In this document: in pieces, positions 1-11,916 of the stretch
How the letters are laid out: every line of letters begins with the position of its first letter
How positions within the stretch are numbered: position 1 is the stretch's first letter
DNA from: Alphaproteobacteria bacterium
GTDB lineage: Bacteria > Pseudomonadota > Alphaproteobacteria > TMED109
Assembly: GCA_022819905.1 (NCBI GenBank)
Contig: JAJEGJ010000035.1
Coordinates: forward strand, 1-64,000
Direction: 5' to 3'
Length of the DNA stretch: 64,000 nucleotides
Translations under genes and position numbers: made by a program
The notes under the pieces: model-generated
Database searches by the model: none
What the model saw: only the letters and a program-made list of their open reading frames with translations
Told to the model about the DNA's origin: nothing

Positions 1-304
1 GCACGGCCCTGGGCCGAAACCCCACCGCCATGCACGGCATCAACACGACCGGCTTGTGGATAACCTGCGGAGCTTCTGTGCAGAACCGCCGTCAGCACCG
101 AATCACAGGCGAATCACCGCTTGACGCGAGACATGGATGCTGTCTTGAGACTGGCGTGATACAGCACCTCCAGCAACCGAGCGAACTGATACCTTGTTGG
201 TAGCTCCACAGTTCCACCACGACAGTGCCTCAACACTCTTTGCCAACACCACTTCGAGCTAAACGCAATCAACCCCCTGTCTGCATCTCGTTCCCCGTTA
301 TGCA
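1..304. other. Gene-poor stretch downstream of the peptide-modification operon
   Basis: No convincing gene or RNA is seen. On the minus strand a possible 63-codon frame (114-305) begins at a GTG that shares one base with the stop codon of the phosphotransferase-like gene (TAGTG). That arrangement allows coupled translation, but the predicted peptide has no recognisable motif and its composition is unremarkable. No terminator hairpin with a T-run is visible after the operon, so the transcript may run past the window edge. Confidence 0.4.
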
Positions 305-2611
305 CTAGCGCCCCCCCCGATCAACGAGGCGTTCTACATCACCGGTATCGCCGTCTACTCGGATTTCCTCTCCGTCTCCAATGGCGTCGCATACTCCAAG
401 GAGCCCAACGACTGCCGGTAATCCGTACTCACGCGCCACAATTGCCGCGTGCGAGAGCCGGCTACCGTTCTCGACAACTACCGCTGCGACCCGACCGAAA
501 AGGATCGTCCAAGCAGGATTGGTATTCGGAGCCACAAGCACATCGCCGTGCCTCACCTTCGCGAAGTCAGCGATGCCACGTACCACGCTGGCTGGGCCCG
601 TCGCGCTTCCTGGACTCGCACCCAGCCCTGTGAACAATTGCTGGCTCGGACTACACACCTCGCCCAGGAATCCAGCCGGCAACCAACTGCGTTGCCGCTT
701 CCACCGAAGAGCATCCCGACGCGCCTCCACGTTAGGGAACTCCATCCCTTGTACTAGCCCTTTTTGCAGCTCCTCCAAAGTCAGCAGGTCTGCTGTCTCG
801 TTCGGCGGAAGCAATCTCTGCGCCTGCAGGCGTCGTGTACATTCGCTGATGGCATCTCGCAAGACTGGTAAAGGGAGGTTCGCCAGCGATTTTGAGTCCT
901 CCCGAACAACTCTCAGTTCGCGGAGCCGATCAATACACCTATCTACTGCCTCCCATCGATCATCCTTGACCTTCTCTAGAAGTCTCTGCCGCTGCGTTCT
1001 AGCACGTTCCACCCCAACTGCCGTGAGATTACCATCGCGGTTCCCTCCCTCATTAGACTTCGCGCCCGTCTCCACGTAAGCGATCAACTCATCCTTCGCA
1101 CTGTGCGCGACCGTCCCATTAATTTCCATATGGCCGAAGCGGTCGATGAACCGATCAAACTCGCCCATCCACTCCGAGCGGTGTGTCGCAGACGCAGACA
1201 TATGCACCAGCTCTTCCAATGCGATGTTCATCCGTACAGTCTCGTGCTCGACACCTGCACAGAGATCGTCAAGGATCTCCTCTGATACCTCGTCCAAACC
1301 CACAAGGCGAGCTAACTCCTGGGCGCACGATTTCTCGCCATCGATCCACTCGAACATCCCGAGAAGCCGTGTCGACGTCATGTAGCCATGTAACCTGCCT
1401 GTCTCCTCTACAATCTCTAGCAAGGTGGCGGTGTCGACCTCCTGCAACACGCCGGTCCGTTCCTTTAGCGACCCCACTTCCGACCGCCAAATTGGAAGTG
1501 CTGCTTCCACCGTCGATCGTTTTTCATGCCTAGAGGGAGGTCGCAGTTCCGTTCCCGGGTCCACAGCAACGGGGACTTCGTGGAATCGAACCACCGCCGC
1601 ATCGACCGATGGCGCCCCTTCCCCCTCGTCCAACATCGACAAACTGGCTTGCCAGATCTCCCGAGTGAAGAGCCCATAGTCCAGCGGCGTCACCGTTGCT
1701 GGGCAGTACTCATCCCACAAGTGAAAGTACCGACGCTGCAACTCCGTCCACCCTCCTGCAGGGCGGCCGGGCAGGACCCATGGCGGGGGACCGTCACGGG
1801 ACGCGTCGCCGCTTGGCTGGGTCGTGATCGGGCGCGCCTGCAGTATGTGGACCTTTCCCCCCTTGGTTACTGCCCATTCCACGTCCTGAGGTAGGCTGAA
1901 ATGTTGCTCGATCCGCTGAACCATTCCGGCGAGCTCCCGCCAAACGGAGTGCGACGGCGAAGACTCGCCCAGATGATCGATTCGAAGCTCCCTGCCGTCC
2001 AAATCCAACCAGCATCGGCCTGCAATTCGCTCGCCTCCAACAAGTTCCTCACCCAGCCCATCGATCCACTCTGCGAACAGGATATCCGACGACTCGGTTG
2101 CCGGATCACTCGAGAACACGACGCCTGCAAACTCGGCGTCTACCATCCTCTGCACGACTACCGCCATTTGGTTAGGGCACACGCCTCGCGCAGACGGCGT
2201 AGTCTTCCTCGCCGTATAGGCCGACGCATGGCCCGTGTAAGCCGACTTCCAACACTCCCGAACTGCCCCCATCAAGTCTTCGGCCGAATCAACGTTCAAC
2301 ACGCTGTGAAACTGCCCTGCGAAAGATGCGTCAGCCGAATCTTCCAACAGGGCCGACGAACGCACTGCCGCCTTGGAACTGCCGATGTACTTCTCCCATG
2401 CTGAACGAAGCTCGAGTGCAAGTTGCGCGCTTATTGCATGAGGATCACTGTCCAGCTTCCCTATCTCTTCCTGCGCTTCCGCCGCGACAACAAACCCGCC
2501 GGGGACCGGCAGTCCCAACGACAGCATTTCCGCTAAAGCATTGCTTTTACCGCCGAAACGAGAGACGCCGACTGCTTGGGCGAGTGGGACTACTAGCGAC
2601 ACTGTTCCCAA
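305..2611 (-). CDS. Rifampicin-phosphotransferase-like / PEP-synthase-like phosphotransferase, probable RiPP modification enzyme
   Basis: 768 residues. The N-terminal ATP-grasp domain (about 1-265) is of PPDK_N type: GGKSNAL at 20-26, RSSALLED at 84-91, GVVFSSDP near 163-170, and VEWAV...LQARPITT near 244-264. A central domain follows (about 275-665, containing VTPLDYG). The C-terminal swivelling phosphohistidine domain (about 680-765) has SRLSHAAIVAREYGLPAVV, with His721 as the predicted phospho-carrier. There is no PEP/pyruvate-binding TIM barrel. This order (ATP-grasp, substrate domain, His domain at the end) is that of rifampicin phosphotransferase, which moves the beta-phosphate of ATP to a hydroxyl group, rather than of true PEP synthase. 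The gene is last in a four-gene operon and overlaps the preceding gene. The TTG start at 2611 is uncertain; GTG at 2602 is an alternative. Inferred role: phosphorylating the precursor peptide, perhaps at a hydroxyl installed by the HExxH enzyme. A small-molecule substrate cannot be excluded. Confidence 0.75.
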   Translation of the reverse strand: MGTVSLVVPLAQAVGVSRFGGKSNALAEMLSLGLPVPGGFVVAAEAQEEIGKLDSDPHAISAQLALELRSAWEKYIGSSKAAVRSSALLEDSADASFAGQFHSVLNVDSAEDLMGAVRECWKSAYTGHASAYTARKTTPSARGVCPNQMAVVVQRMVDAEFAGVVFSSDPATESSDILFAEWIDGLGEELVGGERIAGRCWLDLDGRELRIDHLGESSPSHSVWRELAGMVQRIEQHFSLPQDVEWAVTKGGKVHILQARPITTQPSGDASRDGPPPWVLPGRPAGGWTELQRRYFHLWDEYCPATVTPLDYGLFTREIWQASLSMLDEGEGAPSVDAAVVRFHEVPVAVDPGTELRPPSRHEKRSTVEAALPIWRSEVGSLKERTGVLQEVDTATLLEIVEETGRLHGYMTSTRLLGMFEWIDGEKSCAQELARLVGLDEVSEEILDDLCAGVEHETVRMNIALEELVHMSASATHRSEWMGEFDRFIDRFGHMEINGTVAHSAKDELIAYVETGAKSNEGGNRDGNLTAVGVERARTQRQRLLEKVKDDRWEAVDRCIDRLRELRVVREDSKSLANLPLPVLRDAISECTRRLQAQRLLPPNETADLLTLEELQKGLVQGMEFPNVEARRDALRWKRQRSWLPAGFLGEVCSPSQQLFTGLGASPGSATGPASVVRGIADFAKVRHGDVLVAPNTNPAWTILFGRVAAVVVENGSRLSHAAIVAREYGLPAVVGLLGVCDAIGDGEEIRVDGDTGDVERLVDRGGR

Positions 2612-3168
2612 CGCTCAAGCCACCGATCCAAAAGAGCGGCCAAATTGGGGTCCTTCCTCGTGAAGACTCGGTCCACAGGAACCGCCCACCGTACTGAAAG
2701 GAATGTCCCATTTGACCGGAATGGTCGCGCATTCCTGTCAGCCGCTTGCCCGAGGGGTCGGAGGTCCGACTTTGGGTGCAGTGCTGCCATCATGAGGCCT
2801 CGCTGCAACAACCATCCGCGTTTCTCGTGGACAGCGTGATCAATTGAGGGGAACTCCCCGCCTAGCAGCGCAGTCAGTGTGTCGGGCCTACTCAACTCAA
2901 CCCCCTTGAACGGGGCGCACCTTTGAAAAATCTCGGCTAGCGCTTCTATCGCCAGCGCCAAACCGCCCTCCTCGAACCAAGATCGCGCGTCCGCCACAAG
3001 GAACCGGCGCCTCCTCACCGATTCTACGGCGTGTCCGCACCAAGGCTGCCCGCCGGCTCCTTGCTCCAATTCTCGGATCAGCGCCGCAAATCGCCTCCTA
3101 GCATCCTCGCGCAACCCAGCGGCGGGCCACGGTTCCAAGACACGCCCGCGCACTAGCTCCCTACCCAC
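2593..3168 (-). CDS. DUF6875-like protein of the peptide-modification operon
   Basis: 191 residues from a GTG start four bases after the stop of the HExxH gene; its 3' end overlaps the next gene. The C-terminal third (about 118-180) has GLMMAALHP, ARPFRSN, SVRWAVPVD and a DPNLAALLDRW tail. From memory this resembles the DUF6875 pattern (GLMIGxFHP ... FRPLRSPxPxLAIRxMVxxD), a family found near natural-product genes; the match was made by eye and is tentative. The N-terminal half has PWCGHAVESVRRRRF and a helical stretch. No signal peptide or membrane segment is seen. Its place between two putative modifying enzymes suggests a third tailoring or substrate-recognition component. The biochemical role is unknown. 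Confidence 0.6.
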   Translation of the reverse strand: MGRELVRGRVLEPWPAAGLREDARRRFAALIRELEQGAGGQPWCGHAVESVRRRRFLVADARSWFEEGGLALAIEALAEIFQRCAPFKGVELSRPDTLTALLGGEFPSIDHAVHEKRGWLLQRGLMMAALHPKSDLRPLGQAADRNARPFRSNGTFLSVRWAVPVDRVFTRKDPNLAALLDRWLERWEQCR

Positions 3169-3172
3169 ACCA

Positions 3173-4822
3173 CTACTGCTGGTAGCCCGCCAGCGCTAAC
3201 TGCAGCTGCTCGCTATGTCGGCCGTAGTGATTGACCGTCTCCTCCAGATGATCCAACAACGTCTTCGTTCGCCGAGTCCGATACGTCTTCAGGAAGGCCT
3301 CCTGCGGCGCTGCACGCAGCGTTGACGACATGAATCGACGAAGCCCGCAGAGCACCGCCACGCTCTCCGCAATGCTGGCCCCGCTCTTGGCTTCGCTCAT
3401 CCAACGATCCCCATCGTAGTGTGGAAACGCCGGTCCCTTGGCTTCTCCTAGCACGCTTAATGACCTATAAGCAGCAACGACTTCGCTATGAACAAGGTGG
3501 TCGACAATCTGCGCCACATCGGTTTCCGTCCTGTCAGCAGCAGCCTCTTGTATCGCCACCGAGGCGTACCCTGACTGATCCAGCGTGTTCAACTGACCCT
3601 CTATCTCCTGCGTTTCACGGTCGTAGCAGTCAAGCAACAAACGCCTGAAAACCGTGACGTCGTCCTCGTGTCCGAACGTCGTCAACACGTCAGTCAGCCA
3701 GGTCACGAGCTGCCTCCCATCTGGACCAAGATCAGCTGAATCTGACCTAAGCTTCGCGCCCAGATAAGTCGCCCGATCTAGCGATCTGGTTCGCTCCTTA
3801 TGAAACGAGGGCGGGGGGGCGCCGAACCGGTGACACTCAACATTTGTTGCAACGGCCATTTCGAAGAACAACGCCAAATGAACGTATACATGGAATGCGA
3901 ACAGTGCCCGGTCCGTGGACCAGTTCGCCGAATTCCACGAGAAATGCCGATTCCAAGGTGCGCGAATCAAGCGTGCATTTTCACTGTCGAACCCTTCTCT
4001 AAACACGGATCTCGTCAGAACAAGATCCGACAACTTCTTGTGTGCGGCCTCGTGGAGCAGAGCTTCAGCCGCATGCCATGCCGTCCTTAGCGGGCTCGGC
4101 GACAGGAATACAGTGGAGGGTATTGCGTGCGTACTTACGTTTTGACAGACATCCGAGCGCGTCGGCTTGCTCCACTGCGATCGGTCACTTGTGTCCAGAA
4201 TAGCTACCAGACGAACGTGCTCGATCAACGACGACCATAGTTCGGGCGCTAACTGTGCCAGAATCTCCTCGCCTTGCTTCAATCGCTCTCGAAGCTCCGA
4301 CGATGGCTCCCTAAGTACAACTCTTCCTGAGGAGACGCCATCCGCAATCTCTCGATCAAAGAGCGCTTGAAAGTAGCTGTCCATCGCCCCGGGTGCCCCG
4401 TTGGGGTCCCAAACGTCGAAGTCTGTGCGACCGTGTTCCCCAGAGCGAATAGGCGTAGACGAGATGAGTGTCGCCGTACCCGTGCCAGCCAGTTGGTTCT
4501 GAGCCAGCGCCAAGAAAACCGCACGGTCTCCATCACTAACTTGTGATCGCCCTTCCTTGATGCCGAACAGCGCATTGTTGATGGCCCGCCGGACCACTGG
4601 CCCTGATAGACCACTCGACCTGATGCCTGATTCGCCACTCATGGCGTCTAGCGCTCTTGCCGCACTCACCTCGTACTTGGCTACTACATCTATCCCACGG
4701 GAATAATAGAGTTCTGCACGGCGTCGGATGTTTGAGCTATCCCCGAACACGGGATGGGACGCAAGCTCACTCTCAACTGTCCTTTGCACACCCGGTACCA
4801 TCTCAACCAACCCAGGACGCAA
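3173..4822 (-). CDS. HExxH-motif protein, putative Fe(II)/2-oxoglutarate-dependent peptide beta-hydroxylase
   Basis: 549 residues. LLHEAAHKKL places the metal-binding HExxH at His257-Glu258-His261. About 50 residues later come RAPWNRHF and AFHVYVHLALFFE, where His311 (or His315) is a candidate third ligand. This pattern (HExxH-K-L, then PW, then an HxYVxLAxFFE helix) is that of the family first named HEXXH motif domain and now annotated as aKG-HExxH-type peptide beta-hydroxylases, which act in RiPP pathways. Despite the motif it is not expected to be a protease. The N-terminal 200 residues and the C-terminal helical region (about 350-549) are unassigned. It lies 79 bp downstream of the precursor gene and 4 bp before the next gene. 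The start is uncertain: TTG at 4822, or ATG at 4801 (residue 8). Confidence 0.75.
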   Translation of the reverse strand: MRPGLVEMVPGVQRTVESELASHPVFGDSSNIRRRAELYYSRGIDVVAKYEVSAARALDAMSGESGIRSSGLSGPVVRRAINNALFGIKEGRSQVSDGDRAVFLALAQNQLAGTGTATLISSTPIRSGEHGRTDFDVWDPNGAPGAMDSYFQALFDREIADGVSSGRVVLREPSSELRERLKQGEEILAQLAPELWSSLIEHVRLVAILDTSDRSQWSKPTRSDVCQNVSTHAIPSTVFLSPSPLRTAWHAAEALLHEAAHKKLSDLVLTRSVFREGFDSENARLIRAPWNRHFSWNSANWSTDRALFAFHVYVHLALFFEMAVATNVECHRFGAPPPSFHKERTRSLDRATYLGAKLRSDSADLGPDGRQLVTWLTDVLTTFGHEDDVTVFRRLLLDCYDRETQEIEGQLNTLDQSGYASVAIQEAAADRTETDVAQIVDHLVHSEVVAAYRSLSVLGEAKGPAFPHYDGDRWMSEAKSGASIAESVAVLCGLRRFMSSTLRAAPQEAFLKTYRTRRTKTLLDHLEETVNHYGRHSEQLQLALAGYQQ

Positions 4823-4878
4823 TGACAGCGGCGACCTCGCTACAAGGCAGGATGCTCACCGGCGTCTACATTTTTTCC

Positions 4879-4903
4879 CGGGCAAGTCAGCCCGCTTAGG
4901 GCT
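4879..4903 (-). promoter_or_regulatory. Two mutually exclusive hairpins just after the precursor gene
   Basis: In the mRNA sense, AGCCC at the precursor stop can pair with GGGCT (4899-4903 with 4889-4893, 5 bp). The alternative is CGGGC pairing with GCCCG (4890-4894 with 4879-4883, 5 bp, 6-nt loop). The two stems share 4890-4893, so only one can form. An A-run, not a U-run, follows, so this is not a classic terminator for the operon. It may be a processing or stability element that raises precursor levels over enzyme levels. The stems are short and chance formation is possible. Confidence 0.3.
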
Positions 4904-5144
4904 AACCGCGCGGACCTCCTCTCGGCGGCTTCTCAGTTGCAGGCGCCATGTGATGATGTAACCCAAGGCGCGCATTTCCGACCAGCTTCAATGGGTCCAC
5001 GTCGGGCGCGTCCTCTACACCGTCATCACCATCCGGATCCGTTTCGCTTGTTGCCGGTGCCATGTGGTGGTGCAACGCCAACCGCGCGTTGCCGACTAGC
5101 TTCAGGGGGTCGATGTCTTCATCGAGCGTAACGTGCTTCGTCAT
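4902..5144 (-). CDS. RiPP precursor peptide with two 21-residue histidine-rich core repeats
   Basis: 80 residues. A short leader MTKHVTLDEDI is followed by core 1 (residues 12-32), an acidic spacer (33-49), core 2 (50-70) and a basic tail EKPPRGGPRG. Each core reads DPLKLVGNARL, then Ala (core 1) or Gly (core 2), then LHHHMAPAT. The ATG at 5144 is chosen over an in-frame upstream TTG at 5201 because GGAG lies 8 nt before the ATG and the TTG is part of a TTGACA promoter box. There is no signal peptide, no cysteine and no serine or threonine cluster of the lanthipeptide kind. It is the first gene of the operon, ahead of the HExxH enzyme, the DUF6875-like protein and the phosphotransferase. It is too short and repetitive for an enzyme, and it keeps its amino acid sequence while codons diverge, which supports a real peptide substrate. 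Family not recognised. Confidence 0.8.
   Translation of the reverse strand: MTKHVTLDEDIDPLKLVGNARLALHHHMAPATSETDPDGDDGVEDAPDVDPLKLVGNARLGLHHHMAPATEKPPRGGPRG
4935..5111 (-). repeat. Duplicated core-peptide coding repeat (2 x 63 bp)
   Basis: The repeats occupy 5049-5111 (core 1) and 4935-4997 (core 2). Codon by codon, 13 of 21 positions use different synonymous codons, one differs in amino acid (GCG Ala against GGG Gly), and seven are identical. The DNA has diverged far more than the peptide, so this is an old duplication under strong selection on the product rather than a recent tandem copy. Confidence 0.9.
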
Positions 5145-5152
5145 CTGACGAA

Positions 5153-5156
5153 CTCC
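5153..5156 (-). promoter_or_regulatory. Ribosome binding site of the precursor gene
   Basis: GGAG with an 8-nt spacer (TTCGTCAG) to the ATG at 5144. It decides the start codon in favour of the 80-residue form. Confidence 0.75.
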
Positions 5157-5173
5157 AAAGTTAGGATCCTTGT

Positions 5174-5201
5174 AGTATGACGTTTCAATTTGCTTTGTCA
5201 A
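5174..5201 (-). promoter_or_regulatory. Sigma70-type promoter of the RiPP-like operon
   Basis: On the minus strand a perfect -35 box TTGACA (5196-5201) is followed after 16 bp by CATACT (5174-5179, four of six matches to TATAAT). Transcription would start near 5167, giving a leader of roughly two dozen bases that contains the GGAG site. The region between the two boxes is AT-rich compared with the rest of the window. Confidence 0.6.
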
Positions 5202-5615
5202 TCATCCTTGTCCCCATCCGCGCCATTTCGTGTACTGGACAATCCTCCTTCAGGGCGGGTCGTAGCGGTCGGCGCCTAGTGTTTCGATTTTGAAGTACGA
5301 GAAGCTTTAAGATGATGTTCTTGTGGGATTAGCCACATGATCGTTTAATCCTCTCGTTCGGGACACAGTCTAGCCTCTTTATTGGGCCCGGCCCTGCATG
5401 GCATTCATTCGTATCGGAGGCACAGGACGCGACTCTGCGCCATCAGGGCGTACAAGTGTGCTAATGACTTACCGATGTCCTGGTATGCGATGAACGCTCA
5501 CTCCCTAGGTGTTGGAACGCGCGAAAGAACAGCAGGGAGTGTGGACTTTTTGTCCAGAGATTCAATGTGTTACGTAGGTTCTCCCAGTCGCTTGGAAAAT
5601 TAGAGTGGTTCACGG
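5202..5615. other. Intergenic region upstream of the RiPP-like operon
   Basis: About 414 bp between the operon promoter and the 3' end of the DUF1989 gene. It is less GC-rich than the genes to its right. No convincing coding region, tRNA, transposase remnant or flanking direct repeat was found. A plus-strand frame at 5382-5603 has no supporting motif or ribosome binding site. Confidence 0.5.
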
Positions 5616-6479
5616 TCATCCGTCGCCGTGGCCGCCGTTGTACCCGCTGGGCCGAGCCGGACGCCAGCCTGCCAGGTGATCGTCCTGCGGCCGGAAGATC
5701 TCTACGCCCAGCGGATGGCAGATGGCGCGGCCACTCGAATGACCGACGCCGCAATCGCCACCGGGGCAGGTGGATAGCGCGGCCACCAGGTCGATCTCCG
5801 CAAACAGCTCGATGTAATCGCCGGCCCGGGCGGGGCTTGCCTTCATGAAGTACTGGTTGGTGTCGCGCCGGAAGCCGGTACACATGAACAGGTTCACCAC
5901 GTCGTGCACGAGCATCTCTGCCTCGCCCAGCGAGAGGCCCCGCGCAGCGGCCAGCGCTCGAGTCAGGTTCGAATGACAGCAGTAGTGGTAGTCCGCGCGC
6001 GTCAGGAGATGGTTGGTGTAGGGATCGCAGCGCGTCCCGATGACGTCGTGGACGCCTGCTCCGAACTCGTCAATCCCATACCAATCGAGGGTGTCGCGGG
6101 TAATCGTTGCCATCGGGCGCAGCCACGGCAGGTTGCTCCACAGGCGATCGCCGGTGCTGACGTGCGTGGCGTGGAGCGCTCGCGTCTTCCCGCTGTAGAA
6201 GCGTTCCGACAGGTCATCCGCGTTCCACAGGTTCAAGTCGCCCACCTGCGGGCCATCCACGGTGGTGATGCGGAAAAGGTGACCGGCCGGCACGCGGAAC
6301 GAGCGCGCATCTCGAGGCGGCACGGTCAGCGCGTGCACCAAGGCCATACCGCTGCGAACGGTTTCGTAGAACGTCCGGTCGTAGGGCGGCAGACGGTCCA
6401 GCGAATAGACCGTCACGGGCCTTACGGCACGCCGCGCAGCTGCATCCGCCGGCTCGGGATGTTGCGCGGATTGCATCAT
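5616..6479 (-). CDS. DUF1989 (urea carboxylase-associated) family protein
   Basis: 287 residues. Family features seen include VPAGHLFRITTVDGPQVGDLNLWNADD (split around residues 64-90), SGKTRALHATHVSTGDRLWSN, and a Cys/His-rich stretch with CCHSNL and NLFMCTGF towards the C-terminal half. DUF1989 proteins are often encoded beside urea carboxylase, aminomethyltransferase-like or transporter genes; their reaction is not settled. It follows a five-gene peptide-type ABC importer on the same strand after a gap of 228 bp, so it may act on the imported compound. The start ATG at 6479 is immediately followed by a second Met. Confidence 0.75.
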   Translation of the reverse strand: MMQSAQHPEPADAAARRAVRPVTVYSLDRLPPYDRTFYETVRSGMALVHALTVPPRDARSFRVPAGHLFRITTVDGPQVGDLNLWNADDLSERFYSGKTRALHATHVSTGDRLWSNLPWLRPMATITRDTLDWYGIDEFGAGVHDVIGTRCDPYTNHLLTRADYHYCCHSNLTRALAAARGLSLGEAEMLVHDVVNLFMCTGFRRDTNQYFMKASPARAGDYIELFAEIDLVAALSTCPGGDCGVGHSSGRAICHPLGVEIFRPQDDHLAGWRPARPSGYNGGHGDG

Positions 6480-6707
6480 GGCTTGTTCCTTCCAGCGGGG
6501 TGTTCACGGGTGTAGCCCGACCCTGAGAACCAACGATTCGCTTTGTCACTGTCGGTCCGCGACCGTACCTTCCACCTGCACGCCCGAAGCCGTCGAAGGT
6601 GTGCCGGCAGCCCGGACAGCCGGCGTCGGGGCAGAGGGTGCCTTGCCGGTCTCCAAGTATGTGCGATCACGCTGTCCGGTACCGATGCCAGACCAGCATG
6701 CCCCGCT

Positions 6708-7496
6708 TCAGAATTCCGATGCAGCGGCCCGGTCGTAGCCCCGAGAAGCCCGGAGCAAATGCCGTGAATACGGGTGCTGCGGCGCCGCGGTCCGGAGCGC
6801 CGCCACGTCGAGCGTCTCGACGATCTCGCCGGCGCGCATCACGACCAGCGCCTCGGCCATGTGGCTGACCACGGCGAGGTCGTGGCTCACCAGCACGAAG
6901 GTAAGCGTTCGCTCGCGTCGAAGACGCTGCAGCAAGTTCAGGATTTCCGCCTGCACCGAGACGTCCAGGGCCGAGGTCGGCTCGTCGAGCAACACGACGT
7001 CCGGTTCGATGATCAGCGCGCGGGCGATGGCGACGCGCTGGCGTTGCCCGCCCGAGAGCTGGTGCGGGTAACGGAATCGGAACGAGGCATCGAGACCCAC
7101 GCCGGCGAGCGCCTCGTCGATCCGGCTGTCGATCGAATCCAGGCCGTGGACCCGGGCCGGCTCGCCGAGGATCCGGTCAACGGTATGGCGCGGGTGCAGC
7201 GAGCCGTACGGATCCTGGAACACCATCTGCATCCGTCGACGCAGCGCGCGCGGGCGAATGGCCCCCAGCGATTCGCCGTGCATTCGCATCCGCCCGCGGA
7301 CCTGCGCGGTGGGCGGCAGCACCCCGGCCAGCGCCCGCAGGACGGTGGTCTTCCCCGAACCGGATTCGCCAACCAGTCCGAAGCTGCCGCCCGCCTCCAC
7401 CGAGAAACCGGCGTTCCGCACCGCCCGGAACGCCCGCCTCCCCCGGCCGAACGCAACCTGCAGGCCGGTGACCTCGACCGACACCGCGGGGTTCAT
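6708..7496 (-). CDS. Peptide-type ABC transporter ATP-binding protein (DppF/OppF-like)
   Basis: 262 residues. Walker A GESGSGKTT near 38-46, signature LSGGQRQRVAIARAL, Walker B VVLLDEPTSALD, and a switch His in LVSHDLAVV. The PYSRHLL stretch near the C-terminus is typical of the oligopeptide_ABC_C region. It powers import together with the companion ATPase and two permeases. The gene overlaps the upstream ATPase by 4 bp (ATGA) and is the last transporter gene of the operon. Confidence 0.9.
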   Translation of the reverse strand: MNPAVSVEVTGLQVAFGRGRRAFRAVRNAGFSVEAGGSFGLVGESGSGKTTVLRALAGVLPPTAQVRGRMRMHGESLGAIRPRALRRRMQMVFQDPYGSLHPRHTVDRILGEPARVHGLDSIDSRIDEALAGVGLDASFRFRYPHQLSGGQRQRVAIARALIIEPDVVLLDEPTSALDVSVQAEILNLLQRLRRERTLTFVLVSHDLAVVSHMAEALVVMRAGEIVETLDVAALRTAAPQHPYSRHLLRASRGYDRAAASEF

Positions 7497-8338
7497 CGGG
7501 CCCAGGCCGGATCACGGTGCAGGGTGGGCAGGTCGGCACCATCGCCGTCCACCCGCGGCTGACAGGCGAGGAGGCCCCGCGTGTACGGATGCCGCGCCCC
7601 GTGCAGCTCGGCGGCCCCAAGGGTTTCCACGACCCGGCCCGCGTACATCACGAGGACCCGGTCACAGAACGAAGCCACCAGGTTCAGGTCGTGACTGATG
7701 AAGATCAGCGCAGCCCCCCGGCGTGCGAGCATGTCGTCGAGGAGCGCCAGCACCTGCAGCTGGACCGTGACATCGAGGGCCGAGGTCGGCTCGTCGGCGA
7801 TGATGAGGTCGGGCTCGGGCACCATCATCATCGCGATCATGACCCGCTGGCCCATGCCGCCCGATATCTCGTGCGGCCACGCATCGAACACGTACCGCGG
7901 CTCCCGAATCCGCACCGCCTCCAGCATGGCGAGCGCCCGGTCACGGGCCTCGCGCCGGGATACCCCGGCGTGCACGCGAAAGGCCTCGACGATCTGCTCG
8001 CCGACCGTCATGACCGGGTTCAGCGAGAACTTGGGATCCTGCAGGATCATCGAGATCCGCCGGCCGCGGAGCGCATGCCGCTCCGCTTCGCCCGCGCGCA
8101 GCAGGTCCACGTCGTCGAACGAGAGCTGCCGGGCAGACATGCGTCCGTTACGGGCCAGGAGCCCGAGCAGGGCGCGGCCGGTTTGCGATTTTCCCGACCC
8201 GGACTCGCCGACGATTCCCAGTTTTTCCCGGCCGAGCGTGAAGCTCACGTCCCGGACCGCTGCCACGGCGCCGTGCGGCGTGTCAAACGTCACGTTCAGC
8301 CCGTCGACGATCAGCAGCGGGTCGCGGCGCTCCACCAC
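7493..8338 (-). CDS. Peptide-type ABC transporter ATP-binding protein (DppD/OppD-like)
   Basis: 281 residues. Walker A GESGSGKSQ, the expected QDPKFSLNP element, signature ISGGMGQRVMIAMMM, Walker B LIIADEPTSALD, and FISHDLNLV. The C-terminal HPYTRGLLACQP is the family extension of DppD/OppD. The signature is GGMGQR rather than the more common GGMRQR. It starts 3 bp after the permease stop and overlaps the next ATPase gene by 4 bp. The substrate cannot be told from the ATPase. Confidence 0.9.
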   Translation of the reverse strand: MVERRDPLLIVDGLNVTFDTPHGAVAAVRDVSFTLGREKLGIVGESGSGKSQTGRALLGLLARNGRMSARQLSFDDVDLLRAGEAERHALRGRRISMILQDPKFSLNPVMTVGEQIVEAFRVHAGVSRREARDRALAMLEAVRIREPRYVFDAWPHEISGGMGQRVMIAMMMVPEPDLIIADEPTSALDVTVQLQVLALLDDMLARRGAALIFISHDLNLVASFCDRVLVMYAGRVVETLGAAELHGARHPYTRGLLACQPRVDGDGADLPTLHRDPAWAR

Positions 8339-8341
8339 CGT

Positions 8342-9241
8342 CTAGTCCCTGCTCTTCGGGTCCAGCACGTCACGGAGCCCATCGCCCAGGAGGTTGAACC
8401 CGAGACTGACCACCAGGATCGCGATGCCGGGAAACGCGGGCACCCACCATTGATCCAGCAGGTACTCGCGCCCGAGCGCAATCATGGCTCCCCACTCGGG
8501 GGTCGGCGGCTGCGCCCCGAGGCCGAGAAAGCCCAGACCGGCGGCCGTCAGGATGATCCCCGCCATGTCGAGCGTCAGGCGCACGATGACCGAGGAAACG
8601 CACATCGGCGCCACGTGGCCCGCGATGATTCGCAGGTGCGGGATGCCCTGCGAGCGGGCAGCGAGGATGAAGTCGCTCCGGCGAAGCGTGAGCGCCTCGG
8701 CCCGGGCGATGCGGGCGTAGGGCGACCAGCTAGTGACCGCGATGGCCAGCACTGCGTTCTCGAGCCCGGGTCCGAGCGCGGCGACAAAGGCAAGCGCCAG
8801 GATCAGCCGCGGGAACGCGAGAAAGACATCGGTCAGCCGCATCAGGGCGCTGTCGACCCAGCCGCCGACGTAACCCGCCACGACACCGATGGCGAGGCCG
8901 ATCGGCACGACGATGACCGAGACCAGCCCCACGATGTAGAGCGTGATCCGGGACCCCCACATGACCCGGTCGAAGATATCGCGGCCGAGTTCGTCGGTGC
9001 CGAACCAGTGGGCCGACCCGGGCGCGTGGAGCCGATCGCCGAGGTCGGGCGTGACGCCGGCCGATGCCGTGATCCACGGGGCGAGCAGCGCGCCGGCAAC
9101 CAGCGTCGCGACGATCGCCAGACCGGCGACGGCGCTGCCGTTCCTGCGGAACACCAGCCAGGCAAGAAAGAAGCGCTGACACTGTGCCTGCCGCCGCGAT
9201 TGCGGGATGTCGGTCAGGAGCCAGGCGCGAACGGCGCTCAT
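8342..9241 (-). CDS. Peptide-type ABC transporter permease (DppC/OppC-like)
   Basis: 299 residues from the ATG at 9241, which overlaps the stop of the upstream permease as ATGA. A longer upstream frame is only a shadow of that gene. The N-terminal OppC_N-like segment (RRNGSAVAGLAIV) is followed by about six membrane segments; HWFGTDELGRDIFDRV is the hallmark DppC motif. The EAA loop is EALTLRRSDFILAARSQG. An inner-membrane channel subunit that pairs with the DppB-like protein. Confidence 0.9.
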   Translation of the reverse strand: MSAVRAWLLTDIPQSRRQAQCQRFFLAWLVFRRNGSAVAGLAIVATLVAGALLAPWITASAGVTPDLGDRLHAPGSAHWFGTDELGRDIFDRVMWGSRITLYIVGLVSVIVVPIGLAIGVVAGYVGGWVDSALMRLTDVFLAFPRLILALAFVAALGPGLENAVLAIAVTSWSPYARIARAEALTLRRSDFILAARSQGIPHLRIIAGHVAPMCVSSVIVRLTLDMAGIILTAAGLGFLGLGAQPPTPEWGAMIALGREYLLDQWWVPAFPGIAILVVSLGFNLLGDGLRDVLDPKSRD

Positions 9242-10305
9242 CGCGCCCTCGGATCCACGAGGCGGTAGAGCAGGTCGGAGCCCATGTTGATCGCAACGAA
9301 GCAGATTCCCACGACGATGGTGCCGCCGAGCACCGCATTCATGTCGTTGTTGAAGAGCGACCTGGTGATGTACTGCCCGATGCCCGGCCAGGCGAAGACC
9401 GTCTCCGTGAGCACCGAGCCCTCGAGCAGGGAAGCGTAGGTGAGACCCACGATCGTGATCAGCTGCACCAGCACGTTCCGGAAGGCGTGGCGCCAGATCA
9501 CGGCGCCCTCCGGCACCCCCTTGACCCGCGCCGTGAGGATGTACTCCTGTCCCAGTTGCTCCAGCATGAAATGACGGGTCATGCGAGCGAGGTACGCGAA
9601 CGAGTGGATGCCGAGGATGGCCGCGGGCAGAACGAGATGCCCGATCGCGTTGCGGAAGATGTCCCATTCACGGGCGAGGGCGGAATCCACCAGGATCAGG
9701 CCCGTCACGGGTTCCACCATGCCTTCATAGAAGATGTCGATGCGGCCGGGTCCGGCCACCCAGCCCAGCTTCGCGTAGAACACGAAGAGCGCCAGCATGC
9801 CCAGCCAGAACACGGGCACGGAATACCCGAACAGCCCGACGATGCGCACCAGATGGTCGGCCCACCGACCCTGCCGGACCGCCGCCAGCACGCCCAGCGG
9901 CACGCCGGCGAAGACACCGAGCAGCGTCGCGACGGTGGCAAGTTCCAGCGTGGCGGGGAAGAACCGCAGCAGGTCGTCGATCACCGGCTGCGCCGTCATG
10001 ATCGACACCCCGAGGTCGCCCACGAAGAGCTGACCGAGGTAACGCAGATACTGCACCGGCAGCGGCTGGTCGAGGCCGAGCTCCCGGTAGACCGCGTCGT
10101 ACACGTCCTGGTGGGCGCGATCGCCGACGATGGCCAGCACCGGGTCGGCCGGCATGACCCGGGCGATCACGAACGTCACGGCGGTGAGACCGACAAATGT
10201 CAGGACAAGGGACAGCGCCGTGCCGGCGATTCGGCGCGGCACGTGTCCGAGGAGTGAGCTCCGACCCTCCTGCAGCTGGCTGCCGATCATCGCCTCACGC
10301 CTCAC
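9238..10305 (-). CDS. Peptide-type ABC transporter permease (DppB/OppB-like)
   Basis: 355 residues with about six transmembrane segments. The N-terminal region has the DppB pattern (LGLDQPLPVQYLRYLGQLFVGDLG near 78-101). The EAA loop reads EYILTARVKGVPEGAVIWRHA, and EGSVLTETVFAWPGIG is a conserved late motif. ATG at 10305 or the Met at residue 6 could be the start. The gene follows the substrate-binding protein by 21 bp. Confidence 0.9.
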   Translation of the reverse strand: MRREAMIGSQLQEGRSSLLGHVPRRIAGTALSLVLTFVGLTAVTFVIARVMPADPVLAIVGDRAHQDVYDAVYRELGLDQPLPVQYLRYLGQLFVGDLGVSIMTAQPVIDDLLRFFPATLELATVATLLGVFAGVPLGVLAAVRQGRWADHLVRIVGLFGYSVPVFWLGMLALFVFYAKLGWVAGPGRIDIFYEGMVEPVTGLILVDSALAREWDIFRNAIGHLVLPAAILGIHSFAYLARMTRHFMLEQLGQEYILTARVKGVPEGAVIWRHAFRNVLVQLITIVGLTYASLLEGSVLTETVFAWPGIGQYITRSLFNNDMNAVLGGTIVVGICFVAINMGSDLLYRLVDPRAR

Positions 10306-10326
10306 GCGGCCCCCGTGGGTCCCCGG

Positions 10327-11916
10327 CTACTTGGTGACGTTCCGGTAGTAGACGTGGTCGAAATTCACGCCCGACATGAAGCCCTCGACACGCCGGCGGC
10401 GCACGACCTGCTCGCTCTGCTGAAACATGATGGCGTACGGCCCTTCGGTCTGCAGGCGCTTCTGGAGTTCCAGGTACATCGCTTCGCGCGCGTCAAGGTC
10501 CCGCGTGTCGCGGGCCTCGATCGTCCGCTCGTTGATCGCCTCGGACGCCCACGCGTTTCGCCAGGCGAGCACACCTGCGAGCATGGCTTCCGGCCGGTTG
10601 TCTGGGTTGTGCGCGAAGGCGTCCGCGTTGGAATGGGGGTCCATGTAGTCCGGTGACCAGCGGGCGACGATCAGTTCGTGCTTTCGTGCTCGGTACCGGG
10701 GCCAGAGCGTCTTGCCGTCCTGCATGACGATCCGCGCGTCGATCCCGGCCTGGGCGAAGGTTGCCTGAATCGACTGCGCGATCTGCGGAAACGGCGAGCT
10801 GGTGAGCGTGTCGATCCGTATCTCGAACGGTCCGAGGCCTGCCTGACCCAGCAGGGATCTCGCCTTCTCGATGTCGAGCGCGTACGGCGTTGCCGTGTAG
10901 CTGGCCCAGAGGCCGGCCGGCCAGAACGCCTGGTGCACCGAGAACTGGCCGGCCAGGAACGAGTCCGCCATGCCCTGGTAATCGATCGCGTGTCGCAGCG
11001 CCTGGATCACGGCCGGATGGCCGAGGACCGGATGCGACGCGTTGGCCGCCAGATACACGATCGCGCCCTTTGGATAGCTGTCGACCGCGAGCTCGGCATG
11101 ACCCGCCAGCGCCCGGATCTGGTCGGGCGTGAGGTTGCGGGCCATGTCGACGTCGCCCCGCTCCAGCAGCAGGCGCTGCGCCGACGGCTCGGGCACGTGG
11201 CGCAGGAAGACACGCCGCATCGCGGGCGCACCGCGCCGATACTCGGCATTTGCCTCGAGCGCAATGAACTCGTTCGCCTTCCAGCGCCCGAGCCAGAATG
11301 CGCCGGAGCCGGCGCTGTGCGACCGCAGCCAGCCCTGGCCCAGGTCGCCGTCGGTCTCGTGCGCCAGCACGCGTTCCTTGTCGATCACCGAGGCCACGCC
11401 GGCCGAAAGCGCGTTCAGGATCAGGCCTGGTGAAAGCCCCGCGGTCACGGTGATGCGCACGTGCGACCCGTCGACGACCTCGACCAGATCCCCGACGTTC
11501 TCGGCGTTCCAGCCGAATTGCGTGAAGATGAAGGCGGGGGTCTTGTTGAGCTTCACGACCCGCTCGAGCGAGAACTCGACATCCTCCGGACGCACCGGGT
11601 TGCCCGAGTGAAAGCGGAGGCCGTCCCGGATCCGGAACACGATCGTCTCCCCGTCGGCTTCGATCGCATAGCTTTCGGCAACCCCGCCGGTCAGCTCCCG
11701 CGGGTCTTCGGGCTCGAACATCATCAGGCGGTCGTACACGTTGGCGACGATTTCACCCGCCGTGAATTCGAAGACTTCGGCCGGGTCAAGCGTGATGACG
11801 TCGCCGATATCCTTGGCCATGACGAAGATGTTGTCCGGCGGATCGGCAAGGGCACTGCCGTCTTGGAGCGCCCACACGCCGCACAGGAGCAGGACCGATC
11901 GGACGATGCGGCGCAT
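10327..11916 (-). CDS. Peptide-type ABC transporter substrate-binding protein (SBP family 5)
   Basis: 529 residues. The ATG at 11916 is chosen because it begins a clear signal peptide (MRRIVRSVLLLCGVWALQ, then ALADP) and has GGAG about 9 nt upstream; the 99 codons upstream in frame are GC-rich noise. SBP_bac_5 features include ITLDPAEVFEF, GGVAESYAIEADG, FRIRDGLRFHSGNPVRPEDV near 110-130, and LRHAIDYQGMAD. First gene of the operon with dppB/C/D/F-like genes. No lipobox is evident, so it is probably a soluble periplasmic receptor. The ligand could be a dipeptide, oligopeptide, nickel chelate or amino acid derivative. Confidence 0.88.
   Translation of the reverse strand: MRRIVRSVLLLCGVWALQDGSALADPPDNIFVMAKDIGDVITLDPAEVFEFTAGEIVANVYDRLMMFEPEDPRELTGGVAESYAIEADGETIVFRIRDGLRFHSGNPVRPEDVEFSLERVVKLNKTPAFIFTQFGWNAENVGDLVEVVDGSHVRITVTAGLSPGLILNALSAGVASVIDKERVLAHETDGDLGQGWLRSHSAGSGAFWLGRWKANEFIALEANAEYRRGAPAMRRVFLRHVPEPSAQRLLLERGDVDMARNLTPDQIRALAGHAELAVDSYPKGAIVYLAANASHPVLGHPAVIQALRHAIDYQGMADSFLAGQFSVHQAFWPAGLWASYTATPYALDIEKARSLLGQAGLGPFEIRIDTLTSSPFPQIAQSIQATFAQAGIDARIVMQDGKTLWPRYRARKHELIVARWSPDYMDPHSNADAFAHNPDNRPEAMLAGVLAWRNAWASEAINERTIEARDTRDLDAREAMYLELQKRLQTEGPYAIMFQQSEQVVRRRRVEGFMSGVNFDHVYYRNVTK

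Follow-up and report, generated by a model that had tools for sequence, protein, structure and literature searches.

Several pathways for ribosomally synthesized and post-translationally modified peptides (RiPPs) use α-ketoglutarate (α-KG)-dependent HExxH enzymes. For the ChlB-type HExxH enzyme, hydroxylation of Asp and His in a RiPP precursor has been reported, and the HEXXH enzymes PflC/PosC of Pseudomonas are likewise paired with a small precursor (PMC12636437). In biphenomycin biosynthesis, the α-KG-HExxH enzyme BipH occurs together with BipI, a stand-alone TldD without TldE (PMC12707348). TldD-type proteases also mature other RiPPs (PMC12715798). Here we describe a four-gene operon with a HExxH enzyme at one end of a 64,000-nucleotide stretch of DNA (the window), which comprises positions 1–64,000 of contig JAJEGJ010000035.1 (C13) in the 3.6 Mb draft genome of an alphaproteobacterium. 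The operon very probably specifies a RiPP. No described RiPP was found with this enzyme set, which apparently represents an undescribed type of pathway that draws on known enzyme families.

The operon differs from each of the closest systems. ChlBHExxH shares the HExxH fold and the α-KG peptide β-hydroxylase family with the window protein, but carries a radical S-adenosylmethionine (SAM) domain where the window protein has a DinB domain; the two are 15% identical in a structural alignment. The biphenomycin cluster encodes a multinuclear non-heme iron-dependent oxidase (MNIO), a radical SAM enzyme and a JmjC protein, none of which is present in the window operon, and it lacks DinB, DUF6875 and PPDK-like proteins. 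The window precursor contains no Tyr. The PflC/PosC systems have a Gln-rich core, an ARMD motif and an MNIO–nitroreductase partner, unlike the window operon. Two Streptomyces class I lanthipeptide loci (L008 and L009) contain RiPP operons that include a HExxH enzyme from this superfamily, but they also encode lanthionine enzymes and a sulfotransferase, and their HExxH proteins lie on a distant tree branch. Hidden Markov model (HMM) searches found none of the class-defining enzymes of lanthipeptide, YcaO, radical SAM or MNIO RiPPs among the operon genes, the assembly gap beside the operon being unread. Within the open full-text literature (subscription papers lay outside the scope), no paper joins RiPP precursors with Rph/PEP-synthase-like enzymes, DUF6875 is named in a single paper, on a terpenoid pathway, and searches on HExxH, DinB, DUF3419 and TldD returned only known HExxH/TldD systems.

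Precursor and gene set in two phyla

Four minus-strand open reading frames (ORFs) at 305–5144 encode, in order of transcription, the precursor, a HExxH–DinB protein, a DUF6875-like protein and a PPDK-like enzyme (Table 1). The genes are spaced by 79 bp and 4 bp, and the last two overlap by 19 bp. Order, strand and spacing reproduce those given in an earlier note on this DNA, which was made from the sequence alone.

The precursor contains two near-identical units, each with an LHHHMAP motif. An alignment of the units over 24 codons shows 13 synonymous and three amino-acid changes between them. Because the differences are mostly synonymous, the peptide appears to be under selection rather than a chance frame. 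The segment DPLKLVGNA, conserved within each unit, is probably a recognition motif. Each core unit has one Thr and no Ser.

A HExxH alignment run against 84,980 species genomes yielded 19 loci. In L012, from a Chloroflexota metagenome-assembled genome, the genes for a precursor, a HExxH–DinB protein, a DUF6875 protein and a PPDK_N protein follow the same order as in the window. The L012 precursor (gene at 8712–8888; ...KELAGNANLSLHHHMAPPDGYDEDEE) has one core unit, compared with two in the window. GNA-x-L-x-LHHHMAP is common to all three units, and Trp is absent from both precursors. The HExxH–DinB gene lies at 8992–10677 and the DUF6875 gene at 10653–11237. The HExxH–DinB proteins of the two loci share 36% identity, the DUF6875-like proteins match with an E value of 3e-17, and the PPDK-like proteins share 35% identity over 442 columns. 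In a tree of 22 HExxH proteins, those of the window and L012 are sisters with support of 100/100. Since the gene order is the same and the HExxH proteins are sisters, the gene set appears to travel as a unit across phyla. The locus combines a small precursor gene with a conserved core and adjoining genes for modifying enzymes, which defines a RiPP locus, and the unusual composition pointed out earlier is kept between the two phyla.

In L012, the precursor and the enzyme genes are set apart by a strong terminator-like hairpin with a run of U behind it (z −4.2), as occurs in operons producing surplus precursor. The window hairpin between the precursor and the HExxH gene is no better than shuffles.

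Searches with the HExxH protein returned only itself among 385 genomes of the class, 398 of the phylum and 28 of the order; in 400 genomes from the phylum of L012, the one match other than itself was weak and partial. In 251 of these 400, the L012 DUF6875 protein matched only itself. A plasmid search gave no match for the precursor or the DUF6875-like protein, and alignments found no viral relatives of the DUF6875-like and HExxH–DinB proteins. Phage-borne copies were rejected: six viral contigs contain the DNA pattern of LHHHMAP, but none shows the GNAxL context of the core. Separately, the divergently oriented region beside the L012 operon (6470–8600, minus strand) has a gene for a phage tail sheath and weakly matches Pvc16_N, features found in contractile injection systems.

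Enzymes of the operon

The HExxH–DinB protein scores 47.1 bits against TIGR04267 (α-KG-HExxH peptide β-hydroxylase; cut-off 40). An AlphaFold2 model built from 18 sequences has a predicted local distance difference test (pLDDT) score of 81.6 and a predicted template modelling (pTM) score of 0.86. Residues 18–384 of the model match the HExxH domain of ChlBHExxH (8S5F) with a Z score of 24.9 and a root mean square deviation (rmsd) of 3.2 over 302 residues, and residues 22–396 match SjiH (22OB) with a Z score of 23.9. H257, E258, and H261 are invariant in the HExxH alignment. The earlier assignment as a β-hydroxylase-type protein is borne out by the family score and the ChlBHExxH fold, but had missed a fused C-terminal DinB domain.

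Against DinB_2 (gathering score 24.8), the window protein scores 29.2 bits and the L012 protein 45.8. Residues ~386–549 match the DinB folds of mycothiol S-transferase (8FX9, Z 11.0), YfiT (1RXQ, Z 10.8), and BstA (5WK0, Z 8.0). A Z score near 11 is modest by itself for a helical bundle, and the DinB_2 scores of both proteins add to it. A predicted metal site composed of H442, H532, and H536 was placed by comparison with YfiT and by alignments. The fold and the three His are common to DinB-fold thiol transferases, but here the domain is fused to a peptide hydroxylase. The His triad is complete in the window and L012 proteins, and does not occur together in the other 20 of the 22 aligned relatives. 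As only these two keep the triad, the second predicted metal site co-occurs with the LHHHMAP precursor and the DUF6875 and PPDK-like genes.

The motif HX3HXE is associated with EgtB/OvoA, and HYGRHSE occurs in the DinB domain here. The protein was not classed as an EgtB/OvoA sulfoxide synthase: it has no FGE-sulfatase match and no second EgtB-type domain, and the L012 protein lacks the E of HYGRHSE. The listed fold matches include no EgtB structure, but this does not argue against a resemblance.

At least 11 related HExxH enzymes (L006, L017–L023, L025, L027, L028) have a short ORF directly upstream whose end is rich in His/Asp. These ORFs occur in Streptomyces, Janthinobacterium, Paraburkholderia, Sphingomonadaceae and Beijerinckia. 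Their ends include GGHHHHHDDDE in Streptomyces xanthophaeus, GGGHHDHDHPTLE in Janthinobacterium, DDHDHDHNIES in S. olivoverticillatus, and QHHHEDT in Beijerinckia, as well as GGGHHDHDHP and DDHDHDH. The HExxH gene of L013 adjoins a Nif11-leader peptide gene and a radical SAM gene. There is apparently a wider family of His-rich RiPP precursors encoded beside HExxH enzymes. The earlier note had held that enzymes consistently lacking a precursor-like neighbour would speak against its proposal; in the part of this that was examined, most HExxH relatives adjoin a precursor-like gene. Given the His/Asp-rich neighbouring ORFs and the reported hydroxylation of Asp and His by the ChlB-type enzyme, the hydroxylated residue of the window precursor is likely a His in LHHHMAP.

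DUF6875 proteins are reported to be heme-binding enzymes that oxidize tryptophan or indoles ('cytochrome P422', ZigI; PMC13307353). Against the Pfam gathering score of 24.5, the window protein reaches 21.8 bits and its L012 orthologue 46.7. The DUF6875-like identity proposed earlier is thus carried by the orthologue and not by the window protein, which is a divergent relative rather than a typical member. The LHN segment of typical members is missing from both proteins in the alignment, whereas R160 and D166 are kept, and neither precursor offers a Trp to oxidize. The structural model of the window protein is poor (pLDDT 47). By family resemblance, a heme role is possible. In another genome of the same class (G417), a DUF6875 gene is identical to Rhizobium plasmid genes.

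The PPDK-like enzyme scores 173 bits against PPDK_N and 79.3 bits against PEP-utilizers, and it retains the ATP-grasp motifs and His721 of the swivel domain; it has all the parts expected of a PPDK-like enzyme. The swivel domain is C-terminal, as in chain 5FBS, a rifamycin phosphotransferase structure. Rph and PigC/RedH share this domain order, namely ATP-grasp, substrate domain and C-terminal swivel with His, with no phosphoenolpyruvate (PEP)-binding barrel. However, the models for PEP synthase, PigC, RedH, and Rph score similarly and all fall far below their equivalog cut-offs (for the Rph NCBIfam equivalog, 208.3 bits against 999), and the middle domain has no family match. The enzyme can therefore be called rifampicin-phosphotransferase-like for its domain order, ATP-grasp motifs and His721, but not as a member of the Rph equivalog. 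Phosphoryl transfer to the peptide, ligation, and small-molecule activation are three options suggested by its domains.

Operon ends and genomic island

Table 1. Coordinates of the operon and adjoining features in the window (aa, amino acids)
Feature	Position	Strand	Basis or remark
IS110-like insertion sequence (IS) end, repeated elsewhere in the genome; contig end	1..145	.	Repeat matches
63-aa ORF extending into the IS110 end; could begin a fifth gene	114..305	−	No family match
PPDK_N/PEP-utilizers enzyme, Rph-like domain order, catalytic His721	305..2611	−	HMMs, motifs
DUF6875-like protein, 191 aa	2593..3168	−	Below gathering score; L012 orthologue above
α-KG-HExxH hydroxylase fused to DinB domain, 549 aa	3173..4822	−	HMMs, model, fold search
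DinB-like domain, residues 386–549, with H442, H532, H536	3176..3667	−	HMM, alignments, fold
HExxH domain, residues 18–384 (H257, E258, H261 invariant)	3671..4771	−	Fold match to 8S5F, Z 24.9
Precursor gene, 80 aa, ATG start at 5144	4902..5144	−	ORF calls; core homologous to L012 precursor
Core unit 2, DVDPLKLVGNARLGLHHHMAPAT	4935..5003	−	Comparison of the two units
Core unit 1, DIDPLKLVGNARLALHHHMAPAT	5049..5117	−	Comparison of the two units
Promoter-like site, TTGACA-16-CATACT	5174..5201	−	5′ of the precursor gene; well placed, weak alone
Island left boundary, approximate	5600..5623	.	Congener alignments; congeners match only from 5624 upward

A single promoter had been proposed at the 5′ end of the operon. 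One well-placed site was found there, but 5201 is the coordinate of this site and the precursor gene begins at 5144. A scan of the region gave one site where 2.0 are expected by chance, and the site by itself is weak evidence. A TTG start at 5201 (99-residue frame) coincides with the −35 box of the promoter-like site and was rejected; because this TTG sits inside the site, the 80-residue reading is the right one. At the other end of the operon, the GTG of the 63-residue ORF overlaps the stop codon of the PPDK-like gene (TAGTG). This ORF could be the beginning of a fifth operon gene broken by the insertion sequence. A defence system was rejected, no PADLOC match being found.

The operon sits on an island gained by horizontal transfer. 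Window positions ~5624–9700 have matches of 93–94% identity in three congeners, and the HExxH gene is absent from all six congeners. The GC content of the operon is 58–59% with a third-position GC content (GC3) of 0.61–0.66, compared with mostly 0.75–0.89 for GC3 in the surroundings.

In one congener (L051), homology to C13 stops ~137 bp from homology to another contig, C53, the latter lying where C53 carries dmsC (5420–6684). The first 5.4 kb of C53 (L062) has a low GC content like the operon. As the gene order of the congener joins their flanks, the ends of C13 and C53 would bracket one island, with the assembly broken at an IS110 copy. In the direction of the operon, L062 encodes the C-terminal part of a DUF3419 protein (3–716; 3.5e-12), cut at the contig end, and a TldD metalloprotease with the motif HEAIGH (C-terminal domain, 7.4e-32; E. 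coli TldD, 1.3e-16). DUF3419 (BtaA-like) is a SAM 3-amino-3-carboxypropyl transferase family, and the IS110 copy may have split the gene. The island that carries the operon probably also encodes a TldD-type protease on the far side of the contig end. A HExxH hydroxylase with a TldD lacking TldE would be the pairing seen in biphenomycin biosynthesis. The earlier note had seen no protease or exporter gene. This holds for the window operon but does not speak to the whole cluster, because the contig ends at window position 1, inside an IS110-like repeat.

The other strand of L062 encodes a helix-turn-helix regulator, an Eco29kI-type restriction endonuclease, and a DNA methylase. The endonuclease and methylase genes (3633–5012) lie within the low-GC island.

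Proposed pathway and alternatives

We favour a model, with a probability of roughly 0.7, in which the locus is an undescribed type of RiPP operon whose precursor is processed by the HExxH–DinB, DUF6875-like, and PPDK-like enzymes and released by TldD. The precursor would supply the LHHHMAP cores, with DPLKLVGNA recognized within each unit. With Fe(II), 2-oxoglutarate, and O2, the HExxH domain would β-hydroxylate at least one core residue, most likely a His. A coupled second step on the same peptide would fall to the fused DinB domain, which would have a His-triad metal site of its own; a transfer that depends on a thiol or a metal is most likely. Next, the DUF6875-like protein would carry out or support a further oxidation. 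The hydroxylated peptide, or a fragment of it, would then be phosphorylated or activated by the Rph-like enzyme, which would draw on ATP by way of a phosphohistidine. TldD, possibly with the DUF3419 aminocarboxypropyl-transferase-like enzyme, would finish and release the product. The first and last chemical steps follow close precedents, and the middle ones are suggested by family resemblance; each middle step taken alone is less probable than the figure given for the whole model.

Several points weigh against this model. No clear boundary between leader and core is evident in the precursor, and neither an exporter nor an immunity gene nor a leader-binding domain was recognized. The four-gene set is known from two instances only, and in L012 the PPDK_N gene begins at 11212 and runs off the contig end. 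The linkage of C13 and C53 comes from congener gene order, with no sequence across the gap.

That unrelated genes have come together by chance around a spurious small ORF is highly improbable. The weak DUF6875 match of the window protein, taken alone, would fit such a reading, but it is already contradicted by the conserved repeat units and by the same order, core, and orthologous enzymes in L012. A chance ORF was likewise rejected for the precursor on its synonymous pattern and the same core in another phylum. In the scheme of the earlier note, a core residue is hydroxylated, the hydroxyl so formed is phosphorylated, and elimination may then give a dehydro residue. In the present setting the HExxH and Rph-like enzymes would do this in turn, with DUF6875 and DinB assisting, and the product would be dehydro-His; this scheme is unlikely. 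A hydroxylase in the same operon, the Rph-like domain order, and the intact His721 and ATP-grasp motifs agree with it. However, none of PEP synthase, PigC, RedH, and Rph stands out as clearly closer to the PPDK-like enzyme, which lies far under each of their cut-offs, no lyase domain for the elimination is seen, and a core with one Thr and no Ser offers little to make the HExxH step unneeded. The sequence does not single out phosphorylation.

PigC and RedH ligases have the same domain order, and typical DUF6875 proteins act elsewhere on free amino acids or indoles (PMC13307353). These likenesses would suit a peptide that is only hydroxylated and serves as a scaffold or metal binder, the other enzymes processing a small molecule attached to or carried by it in a PigC-like ligation. 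Since no gene for a small-molecule scaffold is seen in the operon and only two genomes are available for comparison, this too is doubtful. Somewhat better placed, though still tentative, is the proposal that the His-rich cores give a metal-binding product, such as a metallophore or metal buffer, with β-hydroxylation tuning the ligands. The HHH of the window cores and the HHDHDH-type ends in relatives speak for it, but no metal transporter or regulator is seen beside the operon; the adjacent dipeptide-type ABC (ATP-binding cassette) transporter belongs to the host backbone and is present in congeners without the operon. This proposal concerns use rather than synthesis and can be compatible with the favoured RiPP model. 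A more specific version of that model is speculative: the His triplet would be β-hydroxylated by the bifunctional HExxH–DinB protein, its imidazole or hydroxyl elaborated by the DUF6875, Rph-like, and DUF3419 enzymes, and a small His-derived, probably metal-binding product released by TldD. Such a pathway would form a new RiPP class, as these three enzyme types are not known to occur jointly in RiPP biosynthesis.

If the RiPP model is right, the 80-residue substrate would allow direct tests of the fused HExxH–DinB protein, a peptide role of the DUF6875 protein, and a peptide-directed phosphohistidine enzyme. The locus would also point to a broader group of HExxH loci with His/Asp-rich precursors.

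Two further observations concern HExxH loci. The hydroxylases of L017 (8971–11034) and L019 (8938–11094) are ~700 residues long and contain an additional C-terminal part, which in L017 is a Methyltransf_24 domain. Small Cys-rich ORFs (CETCVTNCGSCYETC) lie 3′ of the HExxH enzymes in L007 (10014–10148) and L014 (10907–11221), from Nonomuraea and Spongiactinospora, and are possible precursors of another type.

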